Origin: a virus
Reading direction: 5' to 3' (one strand)
Virus record (IMG/VR): IMGVR_UViG_3300009082_000025
Span: 1-49,752 of that record
DNA length: 49,752 bases
Below, in pieces: positions 1,909-17,533 of the stretch (position 1 is its first letter; every line of letters begins with the position of its first letter). The position numbers and the translations under genes are program-made. A model generated the notes under the pieces. That model was not told the origin of the DNA and made no database searches. It saw only the letters and a program-made list of their open reading frames with translations.

Positions 1909-1946
1909 TTCATTTACACCCGGTTTTGCTGGGTGAGGAGGCGAAC

Positions 1947-2126
1947 GTGGCGAAGAAGGGACGTTGGGCTTGGGCCGGAGGCGACAGTGAGACGGATCGT
2001 TACCGCTGTATGCGGTGTGGAGCGACGGCGAACACTCCGAAGGGGGAAAAGCCTCCTAAGTGTCGGTGTAATCGCACCCCTCGTGGGGTGCTTCTGGTCC
2101 AGAACCGCGTAACAACCACACACTAG
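1947..2126 (+). CDS. zinc-ribbon miniprotein
   Basis: 59 residues from GTG 1947, which follows GAGGAGG closely. The frame is open back to an ATG at 1842, but that extension would run through the 1884-1908 hairpin, lacks a good ribosome site and has protein-unlike composition, so I reject it. CMRCG and a later CRC (after PPK) supply four cysteines in a ribbon arrangement. The rest is basic. It probably binds zinc and possibly nucleic acid; this is a fold-level inference only. Confidence 0.55.
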   Translation: MAKKGRWAWAGGDSETDRYRCMRCGATANTPKGEKPPKCRCNRTPRGVLLVQNRVTTTH

Positions 2127-2129
2127 GCT
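2122..2129 (+). promoter_or_regulatory. candidate -10 box ACTAGGCT
   Basis: Straddles the stop of the zinc-ribbon gene, 17 bp before ATG 2147. A member of the TAGRMT set; no -35 is visible. Confidence 0.35.
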
Positions 2130-2146
2130 ACGGAAATGAGGGAACG

Positions 2147-2314
2147 ATGCGTGTCAGTCGGAACGGAGCTGGGAAGGTGAAGGTGGAAATGTTCCGCGCC
2201 GTCGTCGTTAGCCTCCCAACGACTTACGGATACAGTCGTGGGCATCTTTCGTCGCCTTCCTGTTCCCGACTTTCCCAGCTCCGCTCTGCCTGGCAGATGA
2301 ATCACTCGCTGTGA
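2147..2314 (+). CDS. possible 55-residue protein, or leader RNA
   Basis: An open frame from ATG 2147 (GAGGGAA upstream) to TGA 2312, whose stop overlaps the GTG of the lipoprotein gene (GTGA). The overlap favours a coding role. The protein is basic and Ser-rich with no recognisable motif. The same DNA carries a perfect 12-bp inverted repeat (2164-2175 with 2272-2283) that would close nearly the whole segment into a stem, so it could instead be a structured leader RNA, or both. Confidence 0.35.
   Translation: MRVSRNGAGKVKVEMFRAVVVSLPTTYGYSRGHLSSPSCSRLSQLRSAWQMNHSL
2164..2283 (+). ncRNA. possible structured RNA closed by a 12-bp inverted repeat
   Basis: CGGAGCTGGGAA at 2164-2175 is the exact reverse complement of TTCCCAGCTCCG at 2272-2283. 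Inside, ACGACT and AGTCGT around TACGGATAC form a second hairpin, extended by a CCC/GGG pairing across an A bulge. This could be a regulatory leader of the following lipoprotein gene or a small RNA. It matches no RNA family I recognise. Confidence 0.3.
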
Positions 2315-2658
2315 GCTTCAAGATGCGTTGGATCGCTCTGTTGATTCTTGTCGGTTGTTCACGGCCAGACACGAAAACTTGGCTCGAATCGAACGGCTAC
2401 ACCGTCCTGAAACAAGAGAACATCTCGCAGCCCACGATAGGCCCAAATCCGTGCCGCTTGGGGTACGAAGCGGAGATGGCGGATGCCATTCGTCTGCCAG
2501 TCCCGGAGGAACACTGTGGGAACGGTGTACGGGTTCGTGCACTCGTCTGTTGTAAATGGGACCGTTGTTATCTGATCGAGCAAGAACGGACTTGCTACCG
2601 CCCATCTCCCGGCGAATCCTCATTGCTACCGGGGCCGGGGTTGGGCGACCCTCGCTAG
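2311..2658 (+). CDS. predicted small lipoprotein
   Basis: 115 residues. The N terminus MSFKMRWIALLILVGC has a short hydrophobic stretch ending in LVGC, a good lipobox, so the mature protein would begin at that cysteine and be lipid-anchored outside the inner membrane. Six or more further cysteines (including CCKWDRC) suggest disulfides in an extracytoplasmic setting. GTG 2311 overlaps the upstream stop; ATG 2323 in the same frame gives an unusually short signal. Phage lipoproteins commonly act in superinfection exclusion or as outer-membrane spanins. The position far from the lysis genes favours exclusion, but that is a guess. Confidence 0.6.
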   Translation: MSFKMRWIALLILVGCSRPDTKTWLESNGYTVLKQENISQPTIGPNPCRLGYEAEMADAIRLPVPEEHCGNGVRVRALVCCKWDRCYLIEQERTCYRPSPGESSLLPGPGLGDPR

Positions 2659-2661
2659 GCT
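2654..2661 (+). promoter_or_regulatory. candidate -10 box GCTAGGCT
   Basis: Overlaps the end of the lipoprotein gene, 43 bp before ATG 2705. Shares GGCTACG-type flanking bases with the 2122 site. Confidence 0.35.
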
Positions 2662-2704
2662 ACGCTTGAACGCCCTCTGCGATGAGGGAGATGGGAGGAA
2701 GACG

Positions 2705-3265
2705 ATGGGAACCACGGAGCAGGAAGGGACCACCGAACCACAGCCCGCAACGAGCGAGGCATTCACGTTGGAGGTACAGGAGCCGAACCCCCCGGAGGGG
2801 GTGACGCAGCCGCCACCGACGCCGCTGACGGACGCTGAACTGATCGAGTGTCTGGAGTCGCTGGGGGAGTCGTTGGGTGATCTGAAGGAACACCTGGCGA
2901 CGGCCGACAAGGAGCTGAAGAAGTCCTTGGCGAAGTGGGAGGGGGAGTGCCGGGGCCGCTTCGACCTCGAACGCGGTGAGTGGGAGCGGCGGCTCAAGAA
3001 GCTGTACGACGAGCACGAGGCTTTGTCCCAGAAGGTCAGGGGCTGGCTGAACACCGCCGGGACGGAGATCACCGCCGCCAAGAGTCGCCAGGAGGCGACC
3101 AAGGACAAGGTCAATGCGCTGCTCGTGATCAACAAGGCCTACGGTGAGCGTCTGGACGTTCTGGAGCGCAAGATGGAAGTGCTGTCGAAGCCGAAGCTGA
3201 ACGGTGACCGGCGTGACGACCGGCCGCAGGGTCGCCCGGCGAACGGCGACCGCAGGAGGGCGTGA
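2705..3265 (+). CDS. coiled-coil protein
   Basis: 186 residues. ATG 2705 follows GGGAGGAAG; an in-frame start at 2666 has no ribosome site. The first 45 residues are Glu/Pro/Thr-rich and probably disordered, residues about 50-165 are almost uninterrupted charged helix with heptad-like leucines (SLGESLGDLKEHL, RLDVLERKMEVL), and the tail is Arg/Gly/Asp-rich (NGDRRDDRPQGRP). This suits a fibrous or scaffold-type oligomer. Its stop overlaps the start of the hydrolase gene. Family not recognised. Confidence 0.65.
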   Translation: MGTTEQEGTTEPQPATSEAFTLEVQEPNPPEGVTQPPPTPLTDAELIECLESLGESLGDLKEHLATADKELKKSLAKWEGECRGRFDLERGEWERRLKKLYDEHEALSQKVRGWLNTAGTEITAAKSRQEATKDKVNALLVINKAYGERLDVLERKMEVLSKPKLNGDRRDDRPQGRPANGDRRRA

Positions 3266-3906
3266 TGCCGAACGGAATCGTGGTCTACGGTGGGAAGGAA
3301 CTGACGACATTCGAGAATGCCGACATCGAGTGGTCGGCCCGGATGTTGTATGGCGAGGCGGGCGGCGACTGTGACGTGGACCGCGAGGGGTTGGCGGTCA
3401 TGTGGACGATGATCAACCGCTTCGCCATGCTGTACCCTCGTTTCAGGTCTTTCACCGCAATGATTCGCGGGTACAGCCAACCCATCAACCCGGACTGGAT
3501 GAACGGCGGGAAGCGCGACCCGAATCCGAAAGTGAAGGACGAACGGGAGCTGCGCCGCGAAGCCATCATCCTCATGGGAATCAACAAGTTCCCGGAAGGG
3601 CTGTTGGGGCTCGTGAAGTCCCTTCTTCGTCCGTCCCCGTCCACTGTTGTTGCGCCACCGGACGACATGGTGGGGTTGGTTCACTTCTACTCCCCGTGTT
3701 TCTACTACGCCAAGAAGCTGAAGAAGCGCCAGCGGAACTTGACTTCCCAGGAAGTCGGGTTCGCCTGCCGCACCCACTTTGGCTCCAGCGCGGAACGGCT
3801 CGTCTGGAAGCAGCCCAACGGCGTGAATCCCCAGGGGAATGCCTTCTACGCTGTGAAGGCAACGTCCAGCTGGAAGGCCGACAAGGTCATGGTCATCTCG
3901 GGGTGA
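3265..3906 (+). CDS. SleB-like cell wall hydrolase, possible endolysin
   Basis: 213 residues. The segment RMLYGEA followed by DREGLAVMWTMINRF matches the signature of the Hydrolase_2/SleB family (peptidoglycan-cleaving enzymes of the lysozyme superfamily), with E31 in YGEA as the likely catalytic acid and E41 in DREG as the second conserved glutamate. The C-terminal half (HFYSPCFYY, a later GNAFYA) is typical of the family. There is no signal peptide, so export would need a holin, or the enzyme acts from within the virion. ATG 3265 has AGGAGGG upstream; GTG 3262 is an alternative. It lies far from the lysis cassette at 43-45 kb. Confidence 0.65.
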   Translation: MPNGIVVYGGKELTTFENADIEWSARMLYGEAGGDCDVDREGLAVMWTMINRFAMLYPRFRSFTAMIRGYSQPINPDWMNGGKRDPNPKVKDERELRREAIILMGINKFPEGLLGLVKSLLRPSPSTVVAPPDDMVGLVHFYSPCFYYAKKLKKRQRNLTSQEVGFACRTHFGSSAERLVWKQPNGVNPQGNAFYAVKATSSWKADKVMVISG

Positions 3907-3910
3907 CTCT

Positions 3911-4639
3911 GTGAAACCTCCACCCGCGAAGTCGAAACTTCCTGCTTCCAAGTTTTTGGTAGCGGCGATCCGCGCCCAACTCGCGGCCGGAACCGCTGCT
4001 ACCAGGATCATGGAGGACATGGAACTGTCCGAAGCCGAATACCACCAGCTGCTGGAACAGATGTACACCGAAGACCGGGTGGAACGGCTCGACAAGTCGC
4101 CGGAAAAGGTGTACCTGGACTACTGTCTGCGACAAGAAGGGGTCATCCGGGACCTCGACAAGCTGATCAAGAAGTGGACGAACGGGAACCAGCCCCAGGC
4201 AGTCGTTGGTGCGGCGCGGGCGAAGTCCGAAGCCATCGACCGAATCCTTCAGACCGGACAGCAGATGGGGCTGATACAGAAAGCACCGGAGCGCCACCAG
4301 ATTATCGCGGGCATTGCCGTCGCAGACATGACTGACGCCGACCTGCGTTCCAAGATTTCAGAGCAGTTGGAAGCGGTCAATGCGGTAATGTCCCGCTATG
4401 GTGAACGCGACATGCTGGAAGTGAAGCCGATGACGGCGCTCCCGGAGCCGGTGCGAGCTGTTGTTTCCAAGACGGCTTCGACAGAGCGGACCCGCTCAAT
4501 CAATCCAAAGACAACGGGCGGGCTCGCCAAAGCGAAGGGAGCGCACGCCGGAGCGACCCGTCATGTAGTTGTACGAAAGAAGCCAGCCACTCCACCGCCC
4601 GACGTTTCTTCACTATCTTCAGTCAGCGAACCAGACTAG
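3911..4639 (+). CDS. terS: probable terminase small subunit
   Basis: 242 residues from GTG 3911. Residues about 15-60 form a helix-turn-helix-like bundle (AAGTAATRIMEDMELSEAEY), followed by a long charged helix (residues 60-95) and a basic, Pro/Ser-rich tail. That order (DNA-binding N terminus, oligomerising helix, variable tail) is usual for small terminases, which recognise the packaging site and recruit the large subunit. Position supports this: it is the last sizeable gene before the large terminase, with two small probable virion genes between. I see no residue-level signature, so the call rests on context and architecture. Confidence 0.5.
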   Translation: MKPPPAKSKLPASKFLVAAIRAQLAAGTAATRIMEDMELSEAEYHQLLEQMYTEDRVERLDKSPEKVYLDYCLRQEGVIRDLDKLIKKWTNGNQPQAVVGAARAKSEAIDRILQTGQQMGLIQKAPERHQIIAGIAVADMTDADLRSKISEQLEAVNAVMSRYGERDMLEVKPMTALPEPVRAVVSKTASTERTRSINPKTTGGLAKAKGAHAGATRHVVVRKKPATPPPDVSSLSSVSEPD

Positions 4640-5584: not shown

Positions 5585-7069
5585 ATGGCGACCGGAGCCG
5601 CCGCTGTCGAGAATCGAATAGCCGCATCCTCGGCTGTAGTCTCAGCGAAAAACAGAGACGGGCTGATCTCTCTGCTACACAGGGGGCGGGAAGCCTACAA
5701 GGAGTGGGTGCGGCGAGCGGTTCTCCAGCGGAACAGGATTGATGTGCTCGCGGAACTGGTGCTGGGATACACCGTTCACCCGCGTGTACACTACCCCATC
5801 ATCGTTCACCAACTTCAGAATCCACAGTCATTGACGCTGGCGTTCCGAACGGCCGGGAAGACTACCATCGGGACGATTGCGAAGATGATTCACGTGATCC
5901 TCAAGAATCCCAACATCCATGTGATTCTCGCATCGAAGGTTGCTGAGAACGCAGAGGATATGTTGGGAGAGGTCAAGGGGCACTTCGAGTCTAACGAGGA
6001 GCTGCGCGACATCTTTGGGGACTACGTGGGGGACAGACAGTGGGACGAGCGTTCCATCGCAGTTCGCCCAAGGACGCGGAACGCGAAGGAACCGACTGTA
6101 GCAACGGTCGGTGTCGGGTCGGCCGTCGCGTCGAAGCACTACGACATTGGCTTTGGCGATGACCTCCTGGACGAGTCGAACAGCCGAACCGACCATCAGC
6201 GGCAGTCCATCAAGACGTGGTACTACAAGGTGTTCAAGCCGTGTATCATGCCTCCCGATCCGGTCGTGGATCACCGGGGCGAGATACACATCTTGGGTAC
6301 GCGCTACCACTACGAAGATCTGTACCAGCACTTTCAAGACCACGAGTTCAGGGGAAAGACGCTGGTCATCCCGGCGCTTGATGAGAACGATCAGTCCGTG
6401 TACCCGGAGAAGTTCAAGACGCCATACCTACATGAACTCCGGGAAGATGCCGGACCGATCATCTTCAACTCCCAGTACCAATGTGACACGGAGGCGATGA
6501 AGGGCGAGATATTCAGCTATGACGACTGCGATGTTGTTCCATCGGATCAGTACCCGTCGCTGGAACGGCTGAGAGTTGCAGTCGGCGTAGACCTCGCCAT
6601 CGGGGAAGGCGAACAACACGACTTCTTCGCTACTGTCGTTGTAGGAGAAGACGAACAAGAACACCTCTGGGTTCTGGACTTCACTGAACAGAGGTTGTCG
6701 TTCAGCGCCCAGCAAGAGTCCATTGAGAACACCTACCGGCGTTTCGAGCGTTCCATCATCGGAGCGTTCATCGAGGCGAACGCCTATCAGAAGGCGCAGC
6801 CGGGGGAACTGAAGAAGAAGCACCCAACGTGGCTTATCAGGCCGGTCCTGACACACAAAGACAAAGTCACGAGGGCTTGGAAACTGACTCCCATTTTCGA
6901 ACAGCACCGAATCCATTTCATGCCCCACCACCAGAAACTCATCGACAGGCTCGTGTCGTTCCCTCATGGGAAACGCGACTTGTTCGACGCTCTGGACTTC
7001 GCCATCACCGGGCTGAAGGGGAAGCGTCTCAAGGAACGGACGCGGCGTGCTGAGCCGGGGCTGTTGTAG
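5585..7069 (+). CDS. terL: terminase large subunit
   Basis: 494 residues. This is the DNA-packaging motor: an N-terminal ATPase pumps DNA through the portal and a C-terminal RNase H-like nuclease cuts genome ends. The Walker A is the deviant FRTAGKTT (K92), and the Walker B is DIGFGDD (D187-D193) with acidic residues in the usual place. HILGTRYHYEDLY around residues 236-248 fits the coupling motif. Nuclease acids are D336 in GVDLAIG, E397 in FIEAN and D468/D471 in FDALDFA. Length is typical. It starts at ATG 5585 ten bases after the previous stop and is followed directly by the SLT-like gene. Confidence 0.92.
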   Translation: MATGAAAVENRIAASSAVVSAKNRDGLISLLHRGREAYKEWVRRAVLQRNRIDVLAELVLGYTVHPRVHYPIIVHQLQNPQSLTLAFRTAGKTTIGTIAKMIHVILKNPNIHVILASKVAENAEDMLGEVKGHFESNEELRDIFGDYVGDRQWDERSIAVRPRTRNAKEPTVATVGVGSAVASKHYDIGFGDDLLDESNSRTDHQRQSIKTWYYKVFKPCIMPPDPVVDHRGEIHILGTRYHYEDLYQHFQDHEFRGKTLVIPALDENDQSVYPEKFKTPYLHELREDAGPIIFNSQYQCDTEAMKGEIFSYDDCDVVPSDQYPSLERLRVAVGVDLAIGEGEQHDFFATVVVGEDEQEHLWVLDFTEQRLSFSAQQESIENTYRRFERSIIGAFIEANAYQKAQPGELKKKHPTWLIRPVLTHKDKVTRAWKLTPIFEQHRIHFMPHHQKLIDRLVSFPHGKRDLFDALDFAITGLKGKRLKERTRRAEPGLL

Positions 7070-7078
7070 GAGGGGCAG

Positions 7079-7918
7079 ATGTACACTGTTTCCCAGTTGT
7101 TGTACTACGCAATGCTCGTCTTTCATTCCAACTGGCAGGACACGGCCTGCGATTCCGTTGCAGAGTCCCGTGTTGCCCGCTGCGAACAGATCAGGGATGC
7201 GGCGCAGGAAACGCTTTCCCGATGGTCGGAGATGTTTGCGTACTCCTGCGGGGAAGAAGGCGTTGACTGTTTGTTGACCGTCGCTGTCGCTGAGAAGGAG
7301 TACAGCCTGGGAGACATCGGGAATGGGTCAATCGGAAACGCCTGTCTTCACACGATGGACGTTGGGCGTGTGACAGCTCGAACAGAGCGCGAAGGGTTTT
7401 GCGACCGGCGTTTGACCTGGGAGTCCCACGACGGTTCCCGGAGCGTCACACGGCCCGCTCGCATTGTAGCGGAGAACGACCGCCGGATCACGTTCGACAC
7501 CTGTTGCGCGCGTGAAATCGGGTTGTTCCAGATCCTACCGGCGAACGCAGGAGCGGGCCGACAGGTCCGCTACTACCTTCCAGGTGTCAGCGACAACCTG
7601 ATTGAGTTGCCTAGCAGCTACCGGGAGCGTATGAATCTCGCAGCCCGCGATGAGATCAACATCGCTATCGGGATTGAGGAGATCAGTGAACACATAGCAA
7701 TGTGTCGTACTTCCACTAGCCCAGTCCACGACCTTCAGTACATCGCCGCGTATAACCAAGGCGACTGCGTTGTTGACGAAGGGTTCCGAACCTACTACAG
7801 CGGAGTCCGCTACAAGTACAGGATGATGTGCGAGGCAGAACTCCCAGATGGGAGTCGAATCGCTGATCACCACCCCGGTTGCGGAAACATCCCTGGACCG
7901 GACCCGTGGGAGGAATGA
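7079..7918 (+). CDS. SLT-type lytic transglycosylase-like protein
   Basis: 279 residues. The order of motifs matches the SLT/GH23 lysozyme-like fold, which cleaves peptidoglycan glycan strands: E72 in AEKEYSLG as catalytic acid, EIGLFQILP (146-154) as the GLxQ motif, an N-x-x-x-G helix (NIAIGIEEI) near 195, and AAYNQGD near 223-229. An unusual insert of about 60 residues lies between the first two motifs. At least a dozen cysteines suggest a disulfide-bonded extracytoplasmic or virion-borne enzyme. There is no clear signal peptide; residues 5-15 are only weakly hydrophobic. It lies between terminase and portal, so it is probably a virion or injection component rather than the lysis enzyme. 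Confidence 0.65.
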   Translation: MYTVSQLLYYAMLVFHSNWQDTACDSVAESRVARCEQIRDAAQETLSRWSEMFAYSCGEEGVDCLLTVAVAEKEYSLGDIGNGSIGNACLHTMDVGRVTARTEREGFCDRRLTWESHDGSRSVTRPARIVAENDRRITFDTCCAREIGLFQILPANAGAGRQVRYYLPGVSDNLIELPSSYRERMNLAARDEINIAIGIEEISEHIAMCRTSTSPVHDLQYIAAYNQGDCVVDEGFRTYYSGVRYKYRMMCEAELPDGSRIADHHPGCGNIPGPDPWEE

Positions 7919-7920
7919 AG

Positions 7921-9669
7921 ATGGACGACGAAGCGAAGAAGACGGAAATGGTCGAGCGTCGCAACCAGCGTGAGGTCATCCTCAAGGGCTTCGTCGTGAA
8001 ACTCGACCAAGCACCCGGAGCGACCGAAGCCGGGCGCTCCAATGTCGAGTTGGAGGACCCCGACCTCAGCGGGCTCATCAACCAGGGGCGGATCATCGTC
8101 CCGCCCTTCGACCCGCTGATCATGGCGATGCTCCCGGAGAACAGTACGATCCTGGAGCAGTGCGTTTCGTCCATGGAGGTGAACATCGATGGTTTCGGCC
8201 ATCGGTTTGTTCGCCGCGTCCCTGTCGAGATGCCGAACATCCCGCCCGACGTGAAGACCAACGTTGCGGCTGAACAAGTCTGGCTACAGAACTTGTTTGC
8301 CCACTTCTGCGGGGACCTGAGTTTCGTGGGGTGGCGCCGTCGAATCCGGCGTGACCTGGAGATCACCGGGAACGCCTACACCGAAGTGGTGAAGAACGGT
8401 GCTGGGAAGATTGACCAGCTTGTCCACATTCCCAGCTACCAGATGCGCCTCTCCGTCCAGGACGCGGAGTACACGGAGTACAGGCAGCGTCGGATGGTGC
8501 TACAGTCGGACGGGAGCGTCAAGATTGAAGAAGTCCTGAACCGCAAGCGGTTCCGGCGCTTCGTTCAGTTCGCTCGTCTTGGGACGGACGGAATCGTGAG
8601 GACCATCTACACGAAGCCGATCTGGTTCAAGGAACTGGAAGACCCGCGCCCCATCGATGCGCTGACTGGGAACGTCCTCACGCCGGAACAACTGGCGGAG
8701 GGGAAGTACACGCTCGCAACGCCTGTTGTCCACTTCCGAATCTACAGTCCCCGCTCACCCTACGGAATCCCACGGTGGATCGGGAACCTGATCACGATCA
8801 TCGGGGACCGCGAGGCGGACAACGTCAACTTCGTGACCCTTCGGAACAACAACGTCCCGTCGATGATCATCGCCGTTTCCAACGGCGAGCTGAGCGACGG
8901 TTCCATCCAACGGATCAAGGATTATGTGGAGACCCACATCCAGGGTTCCCACAACTACAGCCGCATTCTGATCATCGAAGCCGCCAGTCCCTTCGCCAAT
9001 GACGCCGGGGAAGGATCGGGCAACGCGAAGATCGATGTGAAGCCGGTCGCGCAAGCCCAGACCCAGGACCAGCTGTTCCAGGCCTTCGGGGAGAACAACC
9101 GTGCCAAAGTCCGCGAAGCGTTCCGGCTCCCTCCCATCTTTGTCGGCCGGTCGGACACGTACAATCGTTCGACAGCGGAAACCAGTCGGAAGTTGGCTGA
9201 CGAGCAGGTCTTTGCGCCGGAGCGGCTGGAGTTCGACTTCTGGATGAACCACCAGCTCTTCCCACTCCTGGAGGTCAAGTACCACAAGTTCCAGTCGATG
9301 GGACCGAACATCACGGACGATGAGGACTTGATCAAGGTCCTGATCGCGGCCGAAAAGACCGGTGGGATGACGCCGCGCATCGCCCGCTACATCATTGAGG
9401 ACATCATGGGTCGGGAGTTCCCGGAGAACTGGAAGGACATGGACCCCGACGTTCCGTTGACGCTCCAGTTGGCGGAGCGGGTCAAGAACACCGCGCCCAT
9501 GACGCCCGGAGCGCAAGTGATGGCGATGAAGGCGCTGGGACCGGACGCCGATGCCGATGTGCTTCTGAAGGACCTGATGGGAATCCGGGAGCGGTTGGAA
9601 GCGAAGGTTGCGGAGGCGGAAGCGACGAAGCCGCTGCTTCCGGTGAAGGTGGCGGGGGCGGGGGCGTAA
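7921..9669 (+). CDS. portal protein
   Basis: 582 residues. Forms the dodecameric ring through which DNA enters and leaves the head. Recognisable elements are the N-terminal region leading to ITGNAYTEVV, the SPRSPYGIPRWIGN motif near residue 280, FVTLRNNNVPSM, and the C-terminal FRLPPIFVG segment followed by the AERLEFDF-type helix, all characteristic of PBSX/HK97-like portals. The Ala/Glu/Lys-rich tail is the usual flexible crown. ATG 7921 is chosen (GGGAGGAATG upstream); an open extension to 7879 overlaps the previous gene. Position between terminase and MuF protein is canonical. Confidence 0.88.
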   Translation: MDDEAKKTEMVERRNQREVILKGFVVKLDQAPGATEAGRSNVELEDPDLSGLINQGRIIVPPFDPLIMAMLPENSTILEQCVSSMEVNIDGFGHRFVRRVPVEMPNIPPDVKTNVAAEQVWLQNLFAHFCGDLSFVGWRRRIRRDLEITGNAYTEVVKNGAGKIDQLVHIPSYQMRLSVQDAEYTEYRQRRMVLQSDGSVKIEEVLNRKRFRRFVQFARLGTDGIVRTIYTKPIWFKELEDPRPIDALTGNVLTPEQLAEGKYTLATPVVHFRIYSPRSPYGIPRWIGNLITIIGDREADNVNFVTLRNNNVPSMIIAVSNGELSDGSIQRIKDYVETHIQGSHNYSRILIIEAASPFANDAGEGSGNAKIDVKPVAQAQTQDQLFQAFGENNRAKVREAFRLPPIFVGRSDTYNRSTAETSRKLADEQVFAPERLEFDFWMNHQLFPLLEVKYHKFQSMGPNITDDEDLIKVLIAAEKTGGMTPRIARYIIEDIMGREFPENWKDMDPDVPLTLQLAERVKNTAPMTPGAQVMAMKALGPDADADVLLKDLMGIRERLEAKVAEAEATKPLLPVKVAGAGA

Positions 9670-9673
9670 GGTC

Positions 9674-10882
9674 GTGTGCGACGTTTGCGAGAGCCAGGGC
9701 AGAATCGTCCCGGCGACGGTCACACAGACCCTCGCCCATAGTCGTTTCGCCAACATCGACTTCAACGCTGTACCGCGTGAGAAGGCGCTCCGGCTTTTGT
9801 CGGCCGTCGAAGACGTGCTGTTCAAGGCGACGGCGCTCCCAGAGTGGAAGCGGATGATCCTGTTGGAGAACAGGCTCCGCGAACAGCTTATCAAGGCTTG
9901 GGCTGCCCGCTCCAAGAAGGCGGTGAAGTCCGCATCCACCATCATTCGCGCCGCGCCAAACCCGGTCAGACAGAAGGATGTTGACGCGGCGCTCGCCGCT
10001 GCTCGTTCCCAGTTCGTCGGGTTCGATGACGAGGTTCGCCCCTTCTTCCGCGAGATGATGAAGGAAGCGTACCGGCTAGCCATCTCCGCAATGAACAAGA
10101 AGGTCCAGGGGAAGTACAAGGGGACACTGCGGTATGACTTTGTTCCCGTGCGAGTCCTGAAGTGGGAGCCCAACCCGTCGCTCCGCGCTTCATTCGAGCT
10201 GATCGATGACGAGGCTGTAGAGGCTCTTGCCGATGACCTGACGTTCTGGGCCGGAGAACACTACGACAGGAACCTGTCCGAAGCCGTGAGGCGAATCGCT
10301 AACGAGGCGATGATCCAGACTGGCGGTGACCCAGAGCGGGCGGCGCAGGAACTGGAAGATGTGATGACGAGGGAGTATGGATATGATCCCAGTGATCCGT
10401 TCACTGGGCCGTACTCTCGCATCCCAGTCGGTTGGAGTGGGTCGGCGCGAGAGTACTGGAGCGGTGTAGCAGCGAACGCGGCGACCGTGGGACGCGTCAA
10501 CGGACAGTTGAGTGCCTTGAGGGGTGTCGGAGCTACGCACTACACTATCGTCAACCCGTTGGACGAGCGGACATGCGAGACTTGCTACTCGATGGCTTCG
10601 GAAGGCACAGCCATGCCAGTGGACGAAGCCTACAACCACATGCGCTCCGAAGTCGGAGCATCAGCGGGCGCAATCCGCTCGACACTCCACCCTTGGGTAA
10701 GGAGCATGGCGGCGATGAGAACGCTTACCGGTGCTCGCGGGCCGGGCGGAAGTGGGGCTTCCAAGTTCATCAAGGCGGGATTGGGGTATCCGCCGTTCCA
10801 CATGCACTGTCGCTGTACAGTTGACATCTCCGAAGAAACCGAGTTCATCACACCTGGGGAGATGGCGGAGCTGACCCCGTAG
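9674..10882 (+). CDS. MuF-type minor head / head morphogenesis protein
   Basis: 402 residues from GTG 9674, four bases after the portal stop. The C-terminal third carries the SPP1 gp7/Mu gpF signature: NPLDERTCETCYSM (C301, C304) and PPFHMHCRCTVDI (H376-C381), which together likely bind zinc. The N terminus has its own CDVC pair and a long helical region. MuF proteins enter the prohead in few copies and are often coupled to proteins delivered with the DNA, which matters because the next gene encodes a large multi-enzyme protein. No extra toxin domain is visible in this one. Confidence 0.85.
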   Translation: MCDVCESQGRIVPATVTQTLAHSRFANIDFNAVPREKALRLLSAVEDVLFKATALPEWKRMILLENRLREQLIKAWAARSKKAVKSASTIIRAAPNPVRQKDVDAALAAARSQFVGFDDEVRPFFREMMKEAYRLAISAMNKKVQGKYKGTLRYDFVPVRVLKWEPNPSLRASFELIDDEAVEALADDLTFWAGEHYDRNLSEAVRRIANEAMIQTGGDPERAAQELEDVMTREYGYDPSDPFTGPYSRIPVGWSGSAREYWSGVAANAATVGRVNGQLSALRGVGATHYTIVNPLDERTCETCYSMASEGTAMPVDEAYNHMRSEVGASAGAIRSTLHPWVRSMAAMRTLTGARGPGGSGASKFIKAGLGYPPFHMHCRCTVDISEETEFITPGEMAELTP

Positions 10883-10891
10883 GAGGGCGCG

Positions 10892-13800
10892 ATGGAGACT
10901 GAGAATCAAGACATGGAGAAGCGGCTGGCGGACACCATCACGGCCACTTACCCTTCATTTGCCTTCCCTCACGATGCCGATTCGATGAAGCGTCTGTCAA
11001 GAAGCCTCCCAGGAGAGAAGGTGAAGAAGGCAGTGCTGGAAGACGGTTCTGGGAAGCGGTACTTCTTCAAGCCCACAACGGTACACAAAGCCTTGGGATG
11101 TATTGCGGCTTCCAATCTAGCGAAAGTGGTGGGGCGGCCGATTCCGCTTCATCGAATCGGCTTCTATGGGAAGCTGTTTGGGACCTTCCGAAACTGGGTT
11201 GAGGGGAAGACCTTGTCGGAGGAAGGGAAGAGAGTCGTTGCGCTTGCGAGGCCCGACCTGCTGGACATCCAGAAGCAACAGTGCTTCAACTACCTCGTGT
11301 CGTTCCCGGACTTGTGGATGAGGAACATCATCCGTGGGAATAACGGGAAGCTGTATTACATCGACTATGAGGGAGAGACATTCAATCTGTATGGGGAAGA
11401 CGACTTCCTCATCGACCCTGAACTCACCCCCAGCGTGTACACGTTCAACAGCTACCAGATCATCTATCGTTCCATCGCCAGCGGGCGTTTGTTTGAGTAC
11501 GCCACTTGGGAGGAACTGGAAGGGGACGTAGCGAAGATCGCTGGTATCAGTGATTCCAAACTGGAAGAGTTTGTCGGGCCATACATCGATGCGTCGCTAC
11601 AGAAGTTGGACGCCAAACGCCCTCCGTGGAAGCTCCGGTACAGCGGGCCGGAGCTGATGAAGGCAATCAAGTCCCGGCGCGATTCCATCGAGAAGACCAT
11701 CAGGACTCTGTACGAGCGTCTGGAAGATGAACGCAAAAAGGCCATCAAGAAGGGCGCCATCGGAACGGATGCGTTCACGGACGGGAAGAAGAACCCGGCG
11801 ATCCTGTCCACGAGTTTCATGGACTCGATGGAGCAGGAGACAATGCTGGTTCCGAAGATCCAGGAGTTCGAGCCGGAGGTCATTGAGAGTTGCGTGAAGG
11901 TTGAACTGTCGGCGGTCCTGTCCTCGCCGCGAGTCCTGCGCGGAGAGTCCGACGATCAGATCGGGAGCATCCATCTTCGGTTACACCAACTTTGGGATCT
12001 GGCGAATGCTGGGCGCTTGAGACTGACGCGACCGGAGTTCCTGAAGGTCCACGCGTTGGTAGTGGCGGAGATGGAGCGCCGTGGGATTGATCACAACGCT
12101 CACGATGAGCTGGATCAGGCTTCGCTTCGCTCGAAGACGCGGAAGTTCATGGGCGAGCAGAGTCCGTACAACGTGGACTACTACAATGGTTTGTCGGACA
12201 TCGACAGGCTCTTTGCCTCCGACTTCGCACGAGTGTCGGAGCAGTTCCCGGAAGTGGCGTTGGAGAACGTGCTGGAGATCGGATGTGGAACTGGTCGTGC
12301 GTTGAAAGTCCTGAAGGCGAGTGGAATCGAAGCCCAGGGCGTTGAGGTGTCCGACCACGCCGTGTCCGTCTGTCGCAACGCCGGGTTGGAGGCTTCCTTC
12401 GGGGACGCGGCTGACCTCCCATACAAGGAAGGCGCGTTTGACGTCACGTTCTCAATGGACGTTCTGGAGCATGTACAGGACTTCCAGAAGGCGCTGAACG
12501 AAGCTGTACGGGTCGCGGCGCGGAAGTCCATTCATCTCATCCCGCTTGGGATTCGTCGGGACGCGACGCACCGCCACACGTTCAAGACTTTGGACGACCT
12601 CCGCAAAGTCGTCTTGGATGCTGTACCAGGCCAAGCCATCGAGTTCCACCGGACGACTTCCAACAAGGCAGTCGTCGTCATCGACAAGGATCGCACAGAC
12701 ACGTCGCCAGTCACGGCGTACCTTCAGGACTTCACGATCATCCCCGGCTTCATGTCTCTGGTTGGCGGGACGGTGAAGCGTTCCGATCCGCGCGACATCG
12801 ACATCGTGTGGCGCGTTTCGGAGCCGATTCGTGGGATGGAGCTGGCTTTCAGGAACTTGCTACCGCCGGAGGTTCACGAGAAGGTACACCACATCTACAA
12901 CCCGTTCGGTCCTCACGATGATCACATCGAGCTGTTCGACCTCGTTGCCGTGAAGCGTCCGGCATTTCGCGTCGAACAGGTAGCCAAAGCCGCTCTCAAG
13001 CCGCTCAAGGCGTTCACGCCCCTCAAGACCGGAAGTGGCTACACCCAGCACGAGTTCTTCACGCCAGACGCTTTCTGGGAGATGTGGGCAAAGCCTTTCA
13101 TCGAGGAAGGGACGCGGCTCGCAGTCGAGATCAAGTACAACGGCTACAGGACCGTTGCGCAGAGTGACGGGAAGGGGACGCTGGTCTACTTTGAGGACAG
13201 CAAGAACGACCGCAGCGAACAGCTCGTGCCCATCGTCAACGACCTCAAGGCGATTGGAAAGCCCGTGATCCTCGACATGGACCTGGGGGCAACTTACGAA
13301 GACGGGACCGTTGTCCCGCGTGTCGAGCTGAGTGGGTTGATCTCTGAGAACACGAAAGTCGCTGAGGACGGGACCTTCACGACTCCCAGCGGGAAGAAGG
13401 CGTGGATTGTCGGTCGCGTCTTCCACATCTTGTATTTGGGGGACGAAGACCTACACACGCTTCCCTGGGAAGAGATGCGCAAGCGTCTCAGCCAGCTTTT
13501 CGCCGGTCACGACTTCAAGCACCTGAAGATCAGCCGTGCTAGGTTGGTGTCGTCCAAGGGCGACTTGATGGACGCCATCAAGAAGGCGAGCGCCGAACAG
13601 GGGAGCGAAGGCGCTGTCGTGAAGGTAGTCACGACTGACTACCCGTTGGACGGGAAGACAACAGGCTGGGCGAAGATCAAGAACCTCCTGGAGCTGAAAG
13701 TCGAGGTCATCGACCGGAAGCCGGTGAAGGATTCGCCCAAGACGTACAACTACTTCGTGGGGTACACCGACGAATCCGGGAAGCTACGGGAGATGGGAAA

Positions 13801-15289
13801 GACGTTCAACACGAACGTCGATGCGAAGCCAGGAGACATCCTGACGCTCAGTGCGGAGGAAGTCATCCCGCGCTACGATGAGGACGCGAAGACTTGGACC
13901 GTCACCACCGTCGTTCCCCGCGTGGAAGACCTCGAAACGGGAAGCATGAAGGCGGAAGGTGTGCGCTCGATCATCGAGCGGGCGTACAAGGCGAACGTCC
14001 TTCAGGCGAGCCCAGATGTGCTGGACCGGCTTCGCGCCGACAAGGTTGTGTCGAAGGGACTCGACATCGAGCTGTTCGACGTTCTGGTCAAGGCGGAAGG
14101 GACGTTGTCATTCCAGGAAGGTGACGAAGGGACAGGAATCCTACAGACTCATGAGCGCGGGTTGGAAGAGTTCCAGGTCAAGCTGACGCACGACTTCGGC
14201 TGGGACCCGGTCATGTTCACTCCGGCCCAGCTGGACCGCCTCAGCGAGATGGCCGGGAAGAACATCGCGCCCGCATACAAGGAAGCGCAGGACGGCCGAA
14301 GCGGCAACCTGTCCGACGCTTTGAAGGGCGCTGACCCGGAGTCTCTGTCGAAGCCCGATCAGGAACTGCTCGCTCTCGCGCGTCCGGTTTCCATTCACAC
14401 CGACTTCCGCATGCGTCCCGGCAAAGAAGACTACTGGGAAGGCGGCGAGGGTTTCACTCCTGGAAACCAGTTCCAGGGGAACAAGTTCAGACTCATGGCT
14501 GAAGGGAAGCTGCCTCCGGGTTCCAAGATCCTGATGAACTTCAAGACGGCCAGGGAAGATGAACTCAGCGATGTATCCAAGGCGGAAGTTCCGGTGCGTG
14601 GGCCGCTCGCATGGATGGGAATCGGTCGTGGCTCGCCCAAGGCGTTCCCGCCGGGCTCAGTCGGTTCGACTTCCGGCGCTTGGAGCCGGTTCTTCATCCG
14701 TGATCAGTTTGACTGGAAGGCCGGAGTCCAGGACAAGCACTACAAGGAGTTCGAGTTCAACGGGAGCGTTCTGGATGGTCGTTGGATCTTCCAGTTCGTG
14801 CCCGTAGGAATGGGAGGCCCTGCGCAAGCACAGGGACGTGCCTGGATGGTATCGAAGCCCGCCAAGCAGATCTTCGACAGTGAGGCTCTCAACAAGCGAC
14901 TCGCTGTGATCCTCCCGATTTTGAAGCGCAACGAGGAGCAGCGCATCGTCACGGCTGTCGTTCTCAAGCCCGACGCGACTGATGCGCAGGGTGACATCAT
15001 TTCCCCGCCGGTCATCGAGAAGGCTGCGTACAACTTCCTTTTGAACTATCGGCGCGGGAACACCGTTGGGTACATGCACAGGGACATGGGGCGGAACCTC
15101 CAAGTGGTAGAGTCCTACATCGCGCCGTCGCCGCTGACGATCAGCGGCCGACTGATCCCGGAAGGTTCTTGGGTCATGTCCGTGAAGGTGTTCGATGATG
15201 AGATCTGGAAGCGCGTCCTTGCGGGAGAGGTAACGGGGTTCAGCATCGGTGGGATGGCGAAGGTGTCGAAGCTGCCGGCTTCCTCCTGA
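10892..15289 (+). CDS. giant multidomain protein ending in an XkdF-type prohead protease
   Basis: 1465 residues, ATG 10892 with AGGAGGGC. Visible blocks in order: kinase-like (K60 in YFFKP, D140/N145 in DLWMRN, D158 in YIDYEG); helical linker; class I methyltransferase (VLEIGCGTG 460-468, SMDVLEH about 521); minimal nucleotidyltransferase (GGTVKRSDPRDID, D635/D637); ATP-dependent DNA ligase (motif I EIKYNGYR with K748, IV EGAVVK 906-911, V WAKIKN K928/K930) plus OB fold; a LigD 3'-phosphoesterase-like segment (HTDFRM, H1169; LDGRWIFQF); and an XkdF protease core (VLKPDATDAQGDII, H1396 in GYMHRD, S1451 in GFSIGG). It occupies the usual prohead-protease slot between MuF protein and scaffold. 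It may be a self-cleaved polyvalent protein packaged and injected; the kinase and phosphoesterase calls are the least certain. Confidence 0.75.
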   Translation: METENQDMEKRLADTITATYPSFAFPHDADSMKRLSRSLPGEKVKKAVLEDGSGKRYFFKPTTVHKALGCIAASNLAKVVGRPIPLHRIGFYGKLFGTFRNWVEGKTLSEEGKRVVALARPDLLDIQKQQCFNYLVSFPDLWMRNIIRGNNGKLYYIDYEGETFNLYGEDDFLIDPELTPSVYTFNSYQIIYRSIASGRLFEYATWEELEGDVAKIAGISDSKLEEFVGPYIDASLQKLDAKRPPWKLRYSGPELMKAIKSRRDSIEKTIRTLYERLEDERKKAIKKGAIGTDAFTDGKKNPAILSTSFMDSMEQETMLVPKIQEFEPEVIESCVKVELSAVLSSPRVLRGESDDQIGSIHLRLHQLWDLANAGRLRLTRPEFLKVHALVVAEMERRGIDHNAHDELDQASLRSKTRKFMGEQSPYNVDYYNGLSDIDRLFASDFARVSEQFPEVALENVLEIGCGTGRALKVLKASGIEAQGVEVSDHAVSVCRNAGLEASFGDAADLPYKEGAFDVTFSMDVLEHVQDFQKALNEAVRVAARKSIHLIPLGIRRDATHRHTFKTLDDLRKVVLDAVPGQAIEFHRTTSNKAVVVIDKDRTDTSPVTAYLQDFTIIPGFMSLVGGTVKRSDPRDIDIVWRVSEPIRGMELAFRNLLPPEVHEKVHHIYNPFGPHDDHIELFDLVAVKRPAFRVEQVAKAALKPLKAFTPLKTGSGYTQHEFFTPDAFWEMWAKPFIEEGTRLAVEIKYNGYRTVAQSDGKGTLVYFEDSKNDRSEQLVPIVNDLKAIGKPVILDMDLGATYEDGTVVPRVELSGLISENTKVAEDGTFTTPSGKKAWIVGRVFHILYLGDEDLHTLPWEEMRKRLSQLFAGHDFKHLKISRARLVSSKGDLMDAIKKASAEQGSEGAVVKVVTTDYPLDGKTTGWAKIKNLLELKVEVIDRKPVKDSPKTYNYFVGYTDESGKLREMGKTFNTNVDAKPGDILTLSAEEVIPRYDEDAKTWTVTTVVPRVEDLETGSMKAEGVRSIIERAYKANVLQASPDVLDRLRADKVVSKGLDIELFDVLVKAEGTLSFQEGDEGTGILQTHERGLEEFQVKLTHDFGWDPVMFTPAQLDRLSEMAGKNIAPAYKEAQDGRSGNLSDALKGADPESLSKPDQELLALARPVSIHTDFRMRPGKEDYWEGGEGFTPGNQFQGNKFRLMAEGKLPPGSKILMNFKTAREDELSDVSKAEVPVRGPLAWMGIGRGSPKAFPPGSVGSTSGAWSRFFIRDQFDWKAGVQDKHYKEFEFNGSVLDGRWIFQFVPVGMGGPAQAQGRAWMVSKPAKQIFDSEALNKRLAVILPILKRNEEQRIVTAVVLKPDATDAQGDIISPPVIEKAAYNFLLNYRRGNTVGYMHRDMGRNLQVVESYIAPSPLTISGRLIPEGSWVMSVKVFDDEIWKRVLAGEVTGFSIGGMAKVSKLPASS

Positions 15290-15316: not shown

Positions 15317-16261
15317 ATGAGCGAGACAGCGGCCAGTGCTCCGAATGAGTTCAAGTCCCACGAGACAAGACAGCGTCTCATGGACATCGACGTGAAGGAA
15401 GTCTCGTTGGTGGACAGGCCAGCCAACGAAGAAGTGTTCCTGGTCGTCAAAAGGAACGATGACGGAGGAAAGGGAAACATGAACGACAAGAGCAACCCCG
15501 AAACGTGCCCGCCGACCGAAGCGAAGCCGGAGCCGACCCCGGCCGCGCCGACTGCTCCGGCCGAGCCGGTGGAGAAGGCGAAGCCCAAGGAGGGCGAGCC
15601 GATGGAGGCAGAGAAGGCCGAAGGCGACATCGTCAAGATCGTTGCCGACGCCAAGAGTGCCCTCAAGTCGGTCCTCAGCGCCTCCAAGAAGCAGGAGGGG
15701 TACGGTGCGCCCGACCCCAAAAAGCTGGGGGCGATGCTGATGGAGATCGCGCAGATGTGCGTGGAAGCGGCGAAGGCCTGCGGCATGGAAGAGAAGTCGC
15801 AGACCCGCAAGTCCATCATGCTCACTTTCAACGAGGGTGGCGAGCTGGAGATCACCGGCGGTGAGCCGGTGGAGAAGGCGAAGCAGTTTACGTCGGCCAG
15901 GACGGACGTGATCAAGGATGCCCTCACGAAGCTGCTCACGCTGGCGAAGGAGATCGATCCGGCGCTGGTCCCGACGATCCTCAAGGAGCTGGGCGTGGAA
16001 GCGGAGAAGGCCACGGGCGGTGGAGCGGGCGGCGGTCCCCACGACGGTCGCGGGAACGGTCCGCGTGACGGTTCCGGTGGCTACCCGGACTCGGATGAGT
16101 ACGGCAAGAAGACCAAGGCGCTGGAGGACGAGATCACGACCCTCAAGAAGCGTCTGGAGGACGTGGAGAAGTCGCGGGGCACGCCGAATGCGGCCCCGAC
16201 CGACACGACGGCGCAGCCCGTCCAGAAGGATCAGGGCGGCTTCTGGAGCAACATCCTCTAG
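15317..16261 (+). CDS. capsid scaffold with the detached XkdF C-terminal segment
   Basis: 314 residues. Residues 20-46 contain DVKEVSLVDRPANEE and FLVVKR, a segment that normally follows the protease core within XkdF proteins; here it begins a separate gene 27 bp later. The rest is Glu/Lys/Ala/Pro-rich and helical with a Gly-rich break (about 232-255) and a C-terminal coiled coil (ALEDEITTLKKRLEDVEKS), then GGFWSNIL, which suits a scaffold binding capsid subunits. A second in-frame start, ATG 15479, has a strong GGAGGAA at 15464-15470 and would make a pure scaffold, like lambda Nu3 nested in C. It directly precedes the capsid gene. Confidence 0.7.
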   Translation: MSETAASAPNEFKSHETRQRLMDIDVKEVSLVDRPANEEVFLVVKRNDDGGKGNMNDKSNPETCPPTEAKPEPTPAAPTAPAEPVEKAKPKEGEPMEAEKAEGDIVKIVADAKSALKSVLSASKKQEGYGAPDPKKLGAMLMEIAQMCVEAAKACGMEEKSQTRKSIMLTFNEGGELEITGGEPVEKAKQFTSARTDVIKDALTKLLTLAKEIDPALVPTILKELGVEAEKATGGGAGGGPHDGRGNGPRDGSGGYPDSDEYGKKTKALEDEITTLKKRLEDVEKSRGTPNAAPTDTTAQPVQKDQGGFWSNIL

Positions 16262-16327: not shown

Positions 16328-17533
16328 ATGCCGACCAATCAGGAACTGCTCGACAAGGATCGCGTCCAGAAGGCGCTCATCGCCGCTGATGCGCTCGCGG
16401 CGGCGGGGAAGCTGAACCCGGAGCAGGCGGACAAGTTCATCGACTACATCATCGACCAGTCGATGATGAAGAACAACGCCCGCGTCGTCCGGTTCAAGCC
16501 GGAGACCATGGAGATCAACAAGCTGGGTCTCGCCAAGCGTGTGGCGATGCCGGCGGCGGAAGCCCGTGACCCGGCGCACCGGCGTGGGATCAGCACGAGC
16601 AAGATCGTTCTCCAGCCGCGCGAGATCATCGTGCCGTTCGAGATCAGCGACACCGTGCTGGAAATCAACCTCGAAGGCCCGGCGCTCCAGGACCACATCA
16701 TCCAGATGATGGGGAAGCAGACGGCCAACGACCTGGAGGACCTCTACATCAACGCCGATCCGACCGGCCCGGCGATCCTGGAGAGCGACTACATCGAGGG
16801 CGGCAGTGCCACGCAGTACGTCCTGGACGCCTACATGGCGCTCATGACCGGCTGGCTCCGGCGCTCCGACTCCGGGCACCTGTTCGACGCGGCGGGCGCG
16901 AACATCGGTTCCACCGTGTTCAGCCGCATGCTGAACCAGATGCCCACGAAGTTCCGGCGCAACCGCAAGGAGCTGCGGTTCTACATCTCGCCCGACCTGG
17001 AGCAGCTGTACCGGGAGAAGGTCAGCACCCGCGCGACGCAGGTGGGCGACACGGCCCTCCAGAGCGAGCAGGTGCTCACGCCGTTCGGCGTCCCGATGGT
17101 GTCCGCGCCGCTGTTCCCGTTCCAGCCGAAGATCGTGGAGCACCTGGTGCTGGCCGTCGCGCCGGGGACTGTGACCCTGCGCTACAAGCCGCTCGTCACC
17201 GGCTCGCTGAAGATCCTGCCGGCGACCCTGGGTGCGACGCCCACCACGCCGTTCGTGGAGGGCGTGGACTACACCGTGAACTACGCCACCGGCGTCGTGA
17301 CCAATGTTCTCCTGCCGGGGGCGACCTACAAGTTCACCTACCAGGCGCAGCCGCAGATGCTCCTGACGCACCCCAACAACTTCGTCGTCGCCATCGGCCG
17401 CGACATCCGCATCGAGAAGGATCGCGACATCTTCAAGCGGGTGAACCAGTACGTCATCACCCTGAAGGTGGACGTGCAGCTTGAGGAAACGGATGCCGTG
17501 GTCAAGGGCGTCAACATCGGCACCGGCGTCTAG
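16328..17533 (+). CDS. major capsid protein, HK97 fold
   Basis: 401 residues from ATG 16328, with AGGAGAAGGAAG upstream. Position after the scaffold, high GC-ending codon use and strong flanking hairpins indicate the main head subunit. The C terminus (HPNNFVVAIGRDIRIEKDRD, then YVITLKVDVQLEETDAVV) is the typical closing part of the capsid A domain/P domain in myophage-type subunits. Residues about 278-342 look like an inserted beta domain (FVEGVDYTVNYATGVVTNV) that would project from the A domain. No cleavage site can be assigned by eye, so I cannot say how much of the N terminus is removed. Confidence 0.85.
   Translation: MPTNQELLDKDRVQKALIAADALAAAGKLNPEQADKFIDYIIDQSMMKNNARVVRFKPETMEINKLGLAKRVAMPAAEARDPAHRRGISTSKIVLQPREIIVPFEISDTVLEINLEGPALQDHIIQMMGKQTANDLEDLYINADPTGPAILESDYIEGGSATQYVLDAYMALMTGWLRRSDSGHLFDAAGANIGSTVFSRMLNQMPTKFRRNRKELRFYISPDLEQLYREKVSTRATQVGDTALQSEQVLTPFGVPMVSAPLFPFQPKIVEHLVLAVAPGTVTLRYKPLVTGSLKILPATLGATPTTPFVEGVDYTVNYATGVVTNVLLPGATYKFTYQAQPQMLLTHPNNFVVAIGRDIRIEKDRDIFKRVNQYVITLKVDVQLEETDAVVKGVNIGTGV

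Follow-up and report, generated by a model that had tools for sequence, protein, structure and literature searches.

Prohead proteases enter the prohead and then digest the scaffold. In the XkdF proteases of Bacillus, Lactococcus and Methanothermobacter phages, the protease domain, with its invariant His and Ser, commonly lies near the N-terminus and is followed by a C-terminal extension of ca. 175-290 residues, taken as scaffold. Bacterial LigD, acting in non-homologous end joining, is a single protein with an ATP-dependent ligase and a 3'-phosphoesterase module, its polymerase module being of the primase type. To our knowledge, the carriage by tailed-phage particles of enzymes that repair their own genome has been little explored. 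African swine fever virus (ASFV) virions pack a repair set comprising Pol X, DNA ligase, AP endonuclease and dUTPase (PMC12172490), and the mycobacteriophages Omega and Corndog combine a Ku of their own with the host LigD, a precedent cited in PMC7719229.

Overall architecture and genomic context

The window, namely the whole stretch of 49,752 nucleotides of viral DNA analysed here (IMG/VR record IMGVR_UViG_3300009082_000025), contains a head module in which one protein comprises, from the N- to the C-terminus, (i) a kinase-like region, (ii) a helical domain, (iii) a methyltransferase, (iv) a nucleotidyltransferase, (v) a DNA ligase with OB domain, (vi) a LigD-type phosphoesterase, and (vii) an XkdF protease (Table 1). 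The preliminary description of this DNA had reported a single uninterrupted frame with multiple enzyme domains and XkdF, and this observation is confirmed. A separate IMG/VR contig (L002) spans the ORF with 99.985% identity over 13,574 bases, and its two mismatches with the window (7471 and 17170) both fall outside the ORF. Because the same frame is present in this second contig, an assembly artefact joining separate genes is unlikely and was rejected as an explanation.

The gene occupies the prohead-protease slot, as originally described, with portal and MuF genes before it and capsid genes after it; for the proposed carriage together with the MuF protein, this neighbourhood is the one line of support. 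The ORF that follows, judged from its match to the C-terminal part of a head maturation protease family, is probably the scaffold half split off the protease.

Table 1. Features of the fusion protein and of the neighbouring head genes in the window
Feature	Residues	Position	Strand	Motifs or matches
Terminase large subunit		5585..7069	+	phrog_38 8.5e-68
Portal protein		7879..9669	+	phrog_12 3.2e-33, TIGR01540 1.5e-41
MuF-like minor head protein, upstream of fusion		9674..10882	+	phrog_115 4.7e-6, Phage_Mu_F 0.0074
Multi-domain ORF	1-1465	10892..15289	+	ATG start, internal stops 0
Kinase-like region (by motifs)	1-340	10892..11911	+	FFKP 58-61, DLWMRN 140-145, IDYE 157-160
Small helical domain	348-403	11933..12100	+	IHLRLHQLW...H..VV.EM.RRG; common to most relatives
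Class I SAM methyltransferase	430-600	12179..12691	+	LEIGCGTG at 461
Pol-beta-type nucleotidyltransferase	613-693	12728..12970	+	D635, D637, D683
ATP-dependent DNA ligase, adenylation domain	710-932	13019..13687	+	motifs I, IV, V
Ligase OB-fold domain	933-1038	13688..14005	+	AlphaFold2 beta strands
LigD-type 3'-phosphoesterase	1085-1330	14144..14881	+	H1169-x-D1171-x-R1173, conserved E1286
XkdF (Peptidase S78_2) prohead protease	1343-1458	14918..15265	+	invariant H1396, E1407, S1451
ORF matching C-terminal part of phrog_3017 (head maturation protease)		15317..16261	+	positions 350-391, 3.2e-6; phrog_13975 4.2e-7
Probable major capsid protein		16328..17533	+	phrog_1623 ('virion structural protein', head and packaging) 2.7e-75

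Enzyme domains

The earlier assignments of the methyltransferase, nucleotidyltransferase, ligase with OB fold, LigD-phosphoesterase-like segment and XkdF-type protease all held. The methyltransferase matches Pfam Methyltransf_11 (residues 461-545, 1.2e-16). The nucleotidyltransferase is recognised by motifs and by weak profile matches in relatives: it displays the hG[GS]...DxD and third carboxylate of the Pol-beta superfamily in the pattern VGG...DIDI...LFDL, retained in nearly all relatives (DxD in 29 of 30 rows, third Asp in 28 of 31 rows). Its window sequence is unmatched and no PDB profile match was obtained, the Pfam matches in one relative (L026) being weak (DUF6932, 2e-5; DNA_pol_B_palm, 0.022; NTP_transf_2, 0.026).

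The ligase preserves motif I as K748-Y-N-G, with Asn replacing the Asp of KxDG, motif IV as SEG (905-907) and motif V as K928-x-K930. Pfam DNA_ligase_A_M covers residues 740-930 (2.6e-14), the family profile retrieves DNA ligases from the PDB at 1.4e-25, and, in an AlphaFold2 model of residues 606-1465 (mean pLDDT 81.6), the ligase and OB domains match solved DNA ligases by Foldseek over alignments of ca. 370-400 columns. The phosphoesterase segment of the window stays below threshold on its own; a 14-row family profile retrieves from the PDB 3p43 as best match (3.8e-6), followed by 3p4h, 2lj6, 3n9b, and 5dmp, the first four of which we take to be LigD-type 3'-phosphoesterases. LigD_N is also matched directly in relatives (L026, 2.3e-15; others weaker), and this similarity, together with the HxDxR core, places the segment in the LigD-type family.

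XkdF protease

The C-terminal domain matches S78_2/XkdF (residues 1343-1458, 4.7e-30) with His and Ser intact. In contrast to the common XkdF form, the protease lies C-terminal, behind the cargo, and the scaffold apparently has its own gene. A single origin of this cargo-first architecture is not favoured, although support is poor: the XkdF tree needs seven changes, at least three forced by supported branches, and phage proteins extended at both the N- and C-terminus were scored as cargo-type, which blurs this count. Judged from the tree, the architecture was probably, though not certainly, gained or lost more than once. In cultured phages, XkdF proteins bear the label 'DNA methyltransferase' (phrog_1530), but the phiMK protein comprises 156 residues, barely beyond the protease, so the label looks misannotated and was set aside as a precedent.

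N-terminal region and helical domain

The kinase-like fold proposed for the N-terminus fared less well. The assignment of the first ca. 340 residues is unconfirmed, and draws on the candidate residues K60, D140-x4-N145, and D158 and on a minor-capsid/ADP-ribosyltransferase fusion of a mycobacteriophage that is matched weakly, at a database E of 0.1-0.2. Pfam, HipA_C, PI3_PI4_kinase and PDB profiles gave no match that would place residues 1-340 among HipA-like or other protein kinases; comparisons with phages, plasmids, the PDB and viral contigs yielded nothing firm; and the single-sequence AlphaFold2 model (pLDDT 40.6) was too poor for use. No homolog was found in the loci of the other family members examined.

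The helical domain that follows, overlooked in the preliminary description, also stands at the N-terminus of an S77 protease-Gp23 capsid fusion (L021). Its identification as a pyrimidine-dimer glycosylase (DenV) was not adopted, since the Pfam matches are weak (E 0.0003-0.005) and cover a partial profile.

Recurrence in related viruses

The ligase with its nucleotidyltransferase, mostly also with the phosphoesterase, is encoded by 26 further virus loci. The fusion to XkdF is found in 15 of the 27 members, the window's protein included; no such fusion was seen in the other 12, some of which are truncated contigs. Unfused members include L005, L010, L012, L026, L027, L046, L054, and that of archaeal virus ANMV-1, and in those examined the ligase gene lies amid portal, protease or capsid genes. 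Capsid-linked carriage would be a fair inference from this distribution.

Relatives display additional domains, namely uracil-DNA glycosylase (UDG), Dam methylase or metallo-beta-lactamase. UDG is present in L018, L022, L126, L133, and L077, whereas L084 comprises UDG with XkdF alone; L133 joins nucleotidyltransferase, metallo-beta-lactamase, ligase, UDG, phosphoesterase and XkdF in a single frame, and L128 fuses a 2H phosphoesterase to XkdF. The ligase lysine is retained in 25 of 27 members (lost in L027 and L029), and the phosphoesterase HxDxR in nearly all primary copies. Three close pairs gave dN/dS values of 0.055, 0.064, and 0.213, indicating purifying selection. L030 lacks the ligase-phosphoesterase cassette while the remaining protein is 60-67% identical to L009, which indicates that the cassette is gained or lost as a unit. 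In a close relative (L058; TerL 69%, portal 63% identical) the protease has no cargo, so the cargo is dispensable.

Functional interpretation

We regard as roughly an even bet that the protein is a capsid-targeted DNA-repair polyprotein, which would be packaged, cleaved, and active on the viral genome. The XkdF protease would draw the fused enzymes into the prohead and perhaps cleave itself from the cargo there, so that nucleotidyltransferase, DNA ligase/OB and 3'-phosphoesterase, and in relatives UDG, Dam methylase and metallo-beta-lactamase, would remain alongside the packaged genome. The repair line, acting inside the particle or soon after entry, would take off a base that is damaged or a 3' end that is blocked, add the missing nucleotide and seal the nick. 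The recurrence of this design in over two dozen further virus contigs suggests that a repair kit is loaded into particles; a shared core with swapped repair modules and conserved catalytic residues argues for repair, and a link to other protease types is consistent with the helical domain on the S77-Gp23 fusion and with the divergent maturation proteases adjoining the ligase gene in L043 and L046. Against repair stand the methyltransferase and kinase-like domains, which have no obvious role in it, the cargo-free relative, the 12 members in which no XkdF fusion was seen and the two ligases without the motif I lysine. No AP endonuclease was recognised among the family domains; base excision would therefore depend on the metallo-beta-lactamase or phosphoesterase domain, or on the host. 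More tentatively, a modular repair line might enter the tailed-virus particle via the prohead-protease fusion, with the helical domain as capsid-targeting tag, and mend the genome, dormant or incoming, with no need of the host.

The repair kit is preferred over effectors injected into the host, the sealing of genome ends, and late repair by an enzyme that is not packaged. The effector reading corresponds to the earlier proposal of enzymes released into the new host, an interpretation that as a whole is partly supported: its domains, the kinase excepted, stand, whereas the cargo of relatives reads more as viral-genome repair than as anti-host effectors. We consider unlikely a protease-packaged polyprotein acting on host proteins, RNA or DNA after entry: methyltransferases are present, the kinase-like N-terminus weakly resembles the mycobacteriophage fusion, and phage-delivered polyvalent proteins and MuF fusions have been published (PMC5512222), but the shared core and add-ons are DNA-repair enzymes (ligase, LigD-type phosphoesterase, UDG), unusual as effectors, and the kinase-like part was found in the window's member only. 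That part and the 2H phosphoesterase-XkdF fusion keep this reading alive.

Less probable is an end-joining or circularisation device trimming and sealing genome ends on entry. Ligase, phosphoesterase and nucleotidyltransferase do parallel the LIG-PE-POL of LigD, the profile of the family ligase retrieves 1vs0, a LigD-type ligase, at 6.5e-14, and mycobacteriophages offer the precedent (PMC7719229); however, glycosylase and Dam domains are unneeded for joining ends, and no Ku was seen in a general scan of the window proteins. Equally improbable is a head-operon product that mends DNA before or during packaging and is left out of the particle, the fusion coupling expression or location only: unfused versions do occur among head genes, but the prohead-protease fusion recurs, and a protease domain entering the prohead would bring its N-terminal partner along. 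An RNA-repair kit against host tRNA-cutting defences is very improbable: ligase, nucleotidyltransferase, methyltransferase and phosphoesterase do resemble phage RNA-repair sets, in which ligases pair with RlaP Pol-beta nucleotidyltransferases (PMC7824862), and RNA_ligase matches weakly in L005, L016, and L026, but the family ligase is a DNA ligase by profile and fold, and UDG and Dam work on DNA.

For the idea of repair carried in tailed-phage particles, the family lends itself to testing, since it joins a defined set of enzymes to a protease expected to enter the prohead, with repair modules swapped among viruses. It singles out the prohead-protease gene as a slot for enzyme cargo and could account for the route by which other phage enzymes get into virions. 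Its ligase, phosphoesterase and nucleotidyltransferase are compact enzymes for biochemistry.

Comparison with known systems

The architecture was described at the outset as non-standard, and no report of a DNA ligase-capsid protease fusion was found in the open-access literature. Polyvalent proteins and MuF-toxin fusions are likewise large, combine several enzymes and are encoded alongside head genes; the polyvalent-protein survey (PMC5512222) does not mention XkdF, and the passages considered here describe no such fusion. The only named relative of the core is the 'ATP-dependent DNA ligase' AJP62006 of ANMV-1 (KP703175), unmentioned in the text of the paper describing that virus, which shares nucleotidyltransferase, ligase, OB and phosphoesterase and is sited between portal and MuF genes, but is ca. 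26% identical, and in it neither a fusion to XkdF nor a methyltransferase, helical or kinase-like domain was found. Compared to LigD, the present protein is a virus head gene product with a Pol-beta-type nucleotidyltransferase, no LigD-style POL domain in a Pfam scan of its 1465 residues, and no Ku in the general scan. The nearest functional analogue would be the packaged base-excision repair set of ASFV, whose particle contains a Pol-beta-type polymerase, DNA ligase and other repair enzymes (PMC12172490), albeit as separate proteins of a eukaryotic virus and with no capsid-protease fusion, the likeness being functional rather than one of membership.

Domain architecture of the 1465-residue protein

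The single long frame read by the preliminary description is genuine: in the window, a virus record of 49.8 kb, it runs from ATG to stop over 1465 residues, and it is repeated in a second, separate IMG/VR contig (99.985% identity across 13,574 bases), with the two mismatches between them both located outside the frame. Of the six domains originally assigned, the XkdF prohead protease, the class I methyltransferase and the DNA ligase are confirmed by Pfam matches far over the cut-offs. The ligase family profile matches DNA ligases at 1.4e-25, and the confidently predicted structure of residues 606-1465 (pLDDT 81.6) aligns with DNA ligases in Foldseek. The LigD-type 3'-phosphoesterase (PE) segment gives no match when the window sequence is searched alone; a 14-row family profile of the segment retrieves LigD-PE-type structures as its top PDB matches, and LigD_N is detected in the related locus L026 (2.3e-15), with matches under its cut-off in L017, L022, L077, L126 and L133. 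The nucleotidyltransferase assignment comprises the motif and weak profile matches in relatives, and the kinase-like character proposed for the N-terminus is unproven. A helical domain of 55 residues, at 348-403, is to be added to the original list.

Distribution, conservation and modularity of the family

Viral-contig scans together with the archaeal virus ANMV-1 provided 26 further ligase-bearing loci, each near-identical pair being entered once, and the fusion to XkdF is displayed by 15 of the 27 members, the window included. The usual order comprises the helical domain, nucleotidyltransferase, an optional methyltransferase, ligase, an optional uracil-DNA glycosylase (UDG) or Dam methylase, PE and XkdF, with the methyltransferase sometimes preceding the nucleotidyltransferase, as in the window protein. 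The nucleotidyltransferase-to-PE part of the window protein found nothing but ANMV-1 among 50,697 phage records, even at E 0.1, and a search of 84,980 genomes disclosed two loci, both on MAG contigs labelled Guay16, which we take to denote Guaymas Basin.

Of the 27 members, 25 retain the ligase lysine; the DxD of the nucleotidyltransferase is intact in 29 of 30, and almost every primary copy of the PE has its HxDxR. In three close pairs, dN/dS is 0.055, 0.064 and 0.213. As judged from the sequences, the catalytic function of the ligase, nucleotidyltransferase and PE appears to have been kept.

The accompanying enzyme domains, so-called cargo, vary among loci and include (i) UDG, in L018, L022, L077, L084, L126 and L133; (ii) D12 Dam methylase, in L019, L028 and L067; (iii) metallo-beta-lactamase, in L005, L026 and L133; and (iv) a LigT-like 2H phosphoesterase, in L128. 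Comparison of L030 with L009 shows 60% identity over the N-terminal 469 residues and 67% over XkdF, the ligase-PE cassette being missing from L030. In addition, L058 resembles the window in terminase (69% identity), portal (63%) and XkdF (59%), and cargo is found nowhere on its 93-kb contig. Because L030 lacks the cassette and L058 the cargo, capsid assembly seems able to proceed without the cargo, which looks to be gained or lost as a block.

Two layouts stand out among the best 80 XkdF loci: in one the protease leads and is extended C-terminally by some 217-251 residues, and in the other it comes last, after 110-1342 residues. The 'DNA methyltransferase' label on the Pseudomonas phage phiMK protein is probably a misannotation, and the phrog_1530 label may likewise be one.

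Features of the window and of the loci compared with it
Locus	Position	Content	Remark
Window	10892-15289	1465-residue frame	From ATG (10892) to stop (15289)
Window	7079-7918	Weak match to transglycosylase (SLT)	Lies between the terminase and portal genes; L058 counterpart 51% identical
L001 (ANMV-1)	1913-3193	Portal-protein match (phrog_146, 2e-30)	Yet labelled 'MutT-like phage hydrolase'
L001 (ANMV-1)	5868-9368	Cys-rich protein, 1166 aa	Short MuF-like match C-terminally
L021	4524-7487	Helical domain, T4-type S77 prohead protease and Gp23-type major capsid protein	Single frame
L022	6072-10769	His-rich repeats (HxH motifs) within cargo region	Insert at aa 375-548
L034 (phiMK)	3902-4372	156-aa protein, mostly XkdF protease	Annotated 'DNA methyltransferase'
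L065	4002-5750	Cargo region with His-rich repeat segments, HxH motifs	
L067	3607-6375	XkdF fusion with D12 Dam methylase and PE	No ligase detected
L084	4987-6102	UDG joined straight to XkdF	Without ligase core
L128	1761-3149	2H phosphoesterase joined to XkdF	

Proposed role and comparison with known systems

In the window and the relatives examined, the portal and the minor head protein MuF are encoded upstream and the capsid genes downstream. In L021, the ligase protein is a separate gene upstream of the S77 protease-Gp23 fusion, and the helical domain heads this fusion, which suggests a possible capsid-targeting role for the domain. The XkdF protease would take the fused enzymes into the prohead and may then release them, and the enzymes would repair the DNA of the virus, either inside the virion or on entry. 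What the analysis shows directly is the domains, residues, selection, locus and recurrence.

Among the alternatives, delivery of the enzymes as effectors is favoured by the kinase-like part and by the 2H domain of L128, whereas the glycosylases favour DNA repair instead. Sealing of genome ends and late repair by unpackaged enzymes are further readings; the weakest, RNA repair, is opposed by the glycosylases, which point to repair of DNA.

The component domains belong to known families, and enzymes packaged in virions, as well as viral repair sets, are already known; for a DNA-repair set fused to a capsid protease, no example was found in the literature or phage records searched. For packaged DNA repair as proposed for this family, the closest functional parallel is ASFV, which packages an analogous repair set (PMC12172490); the likeness resides in a repair set carried in the particle, with packaging in the present family being what we infer from the genes.
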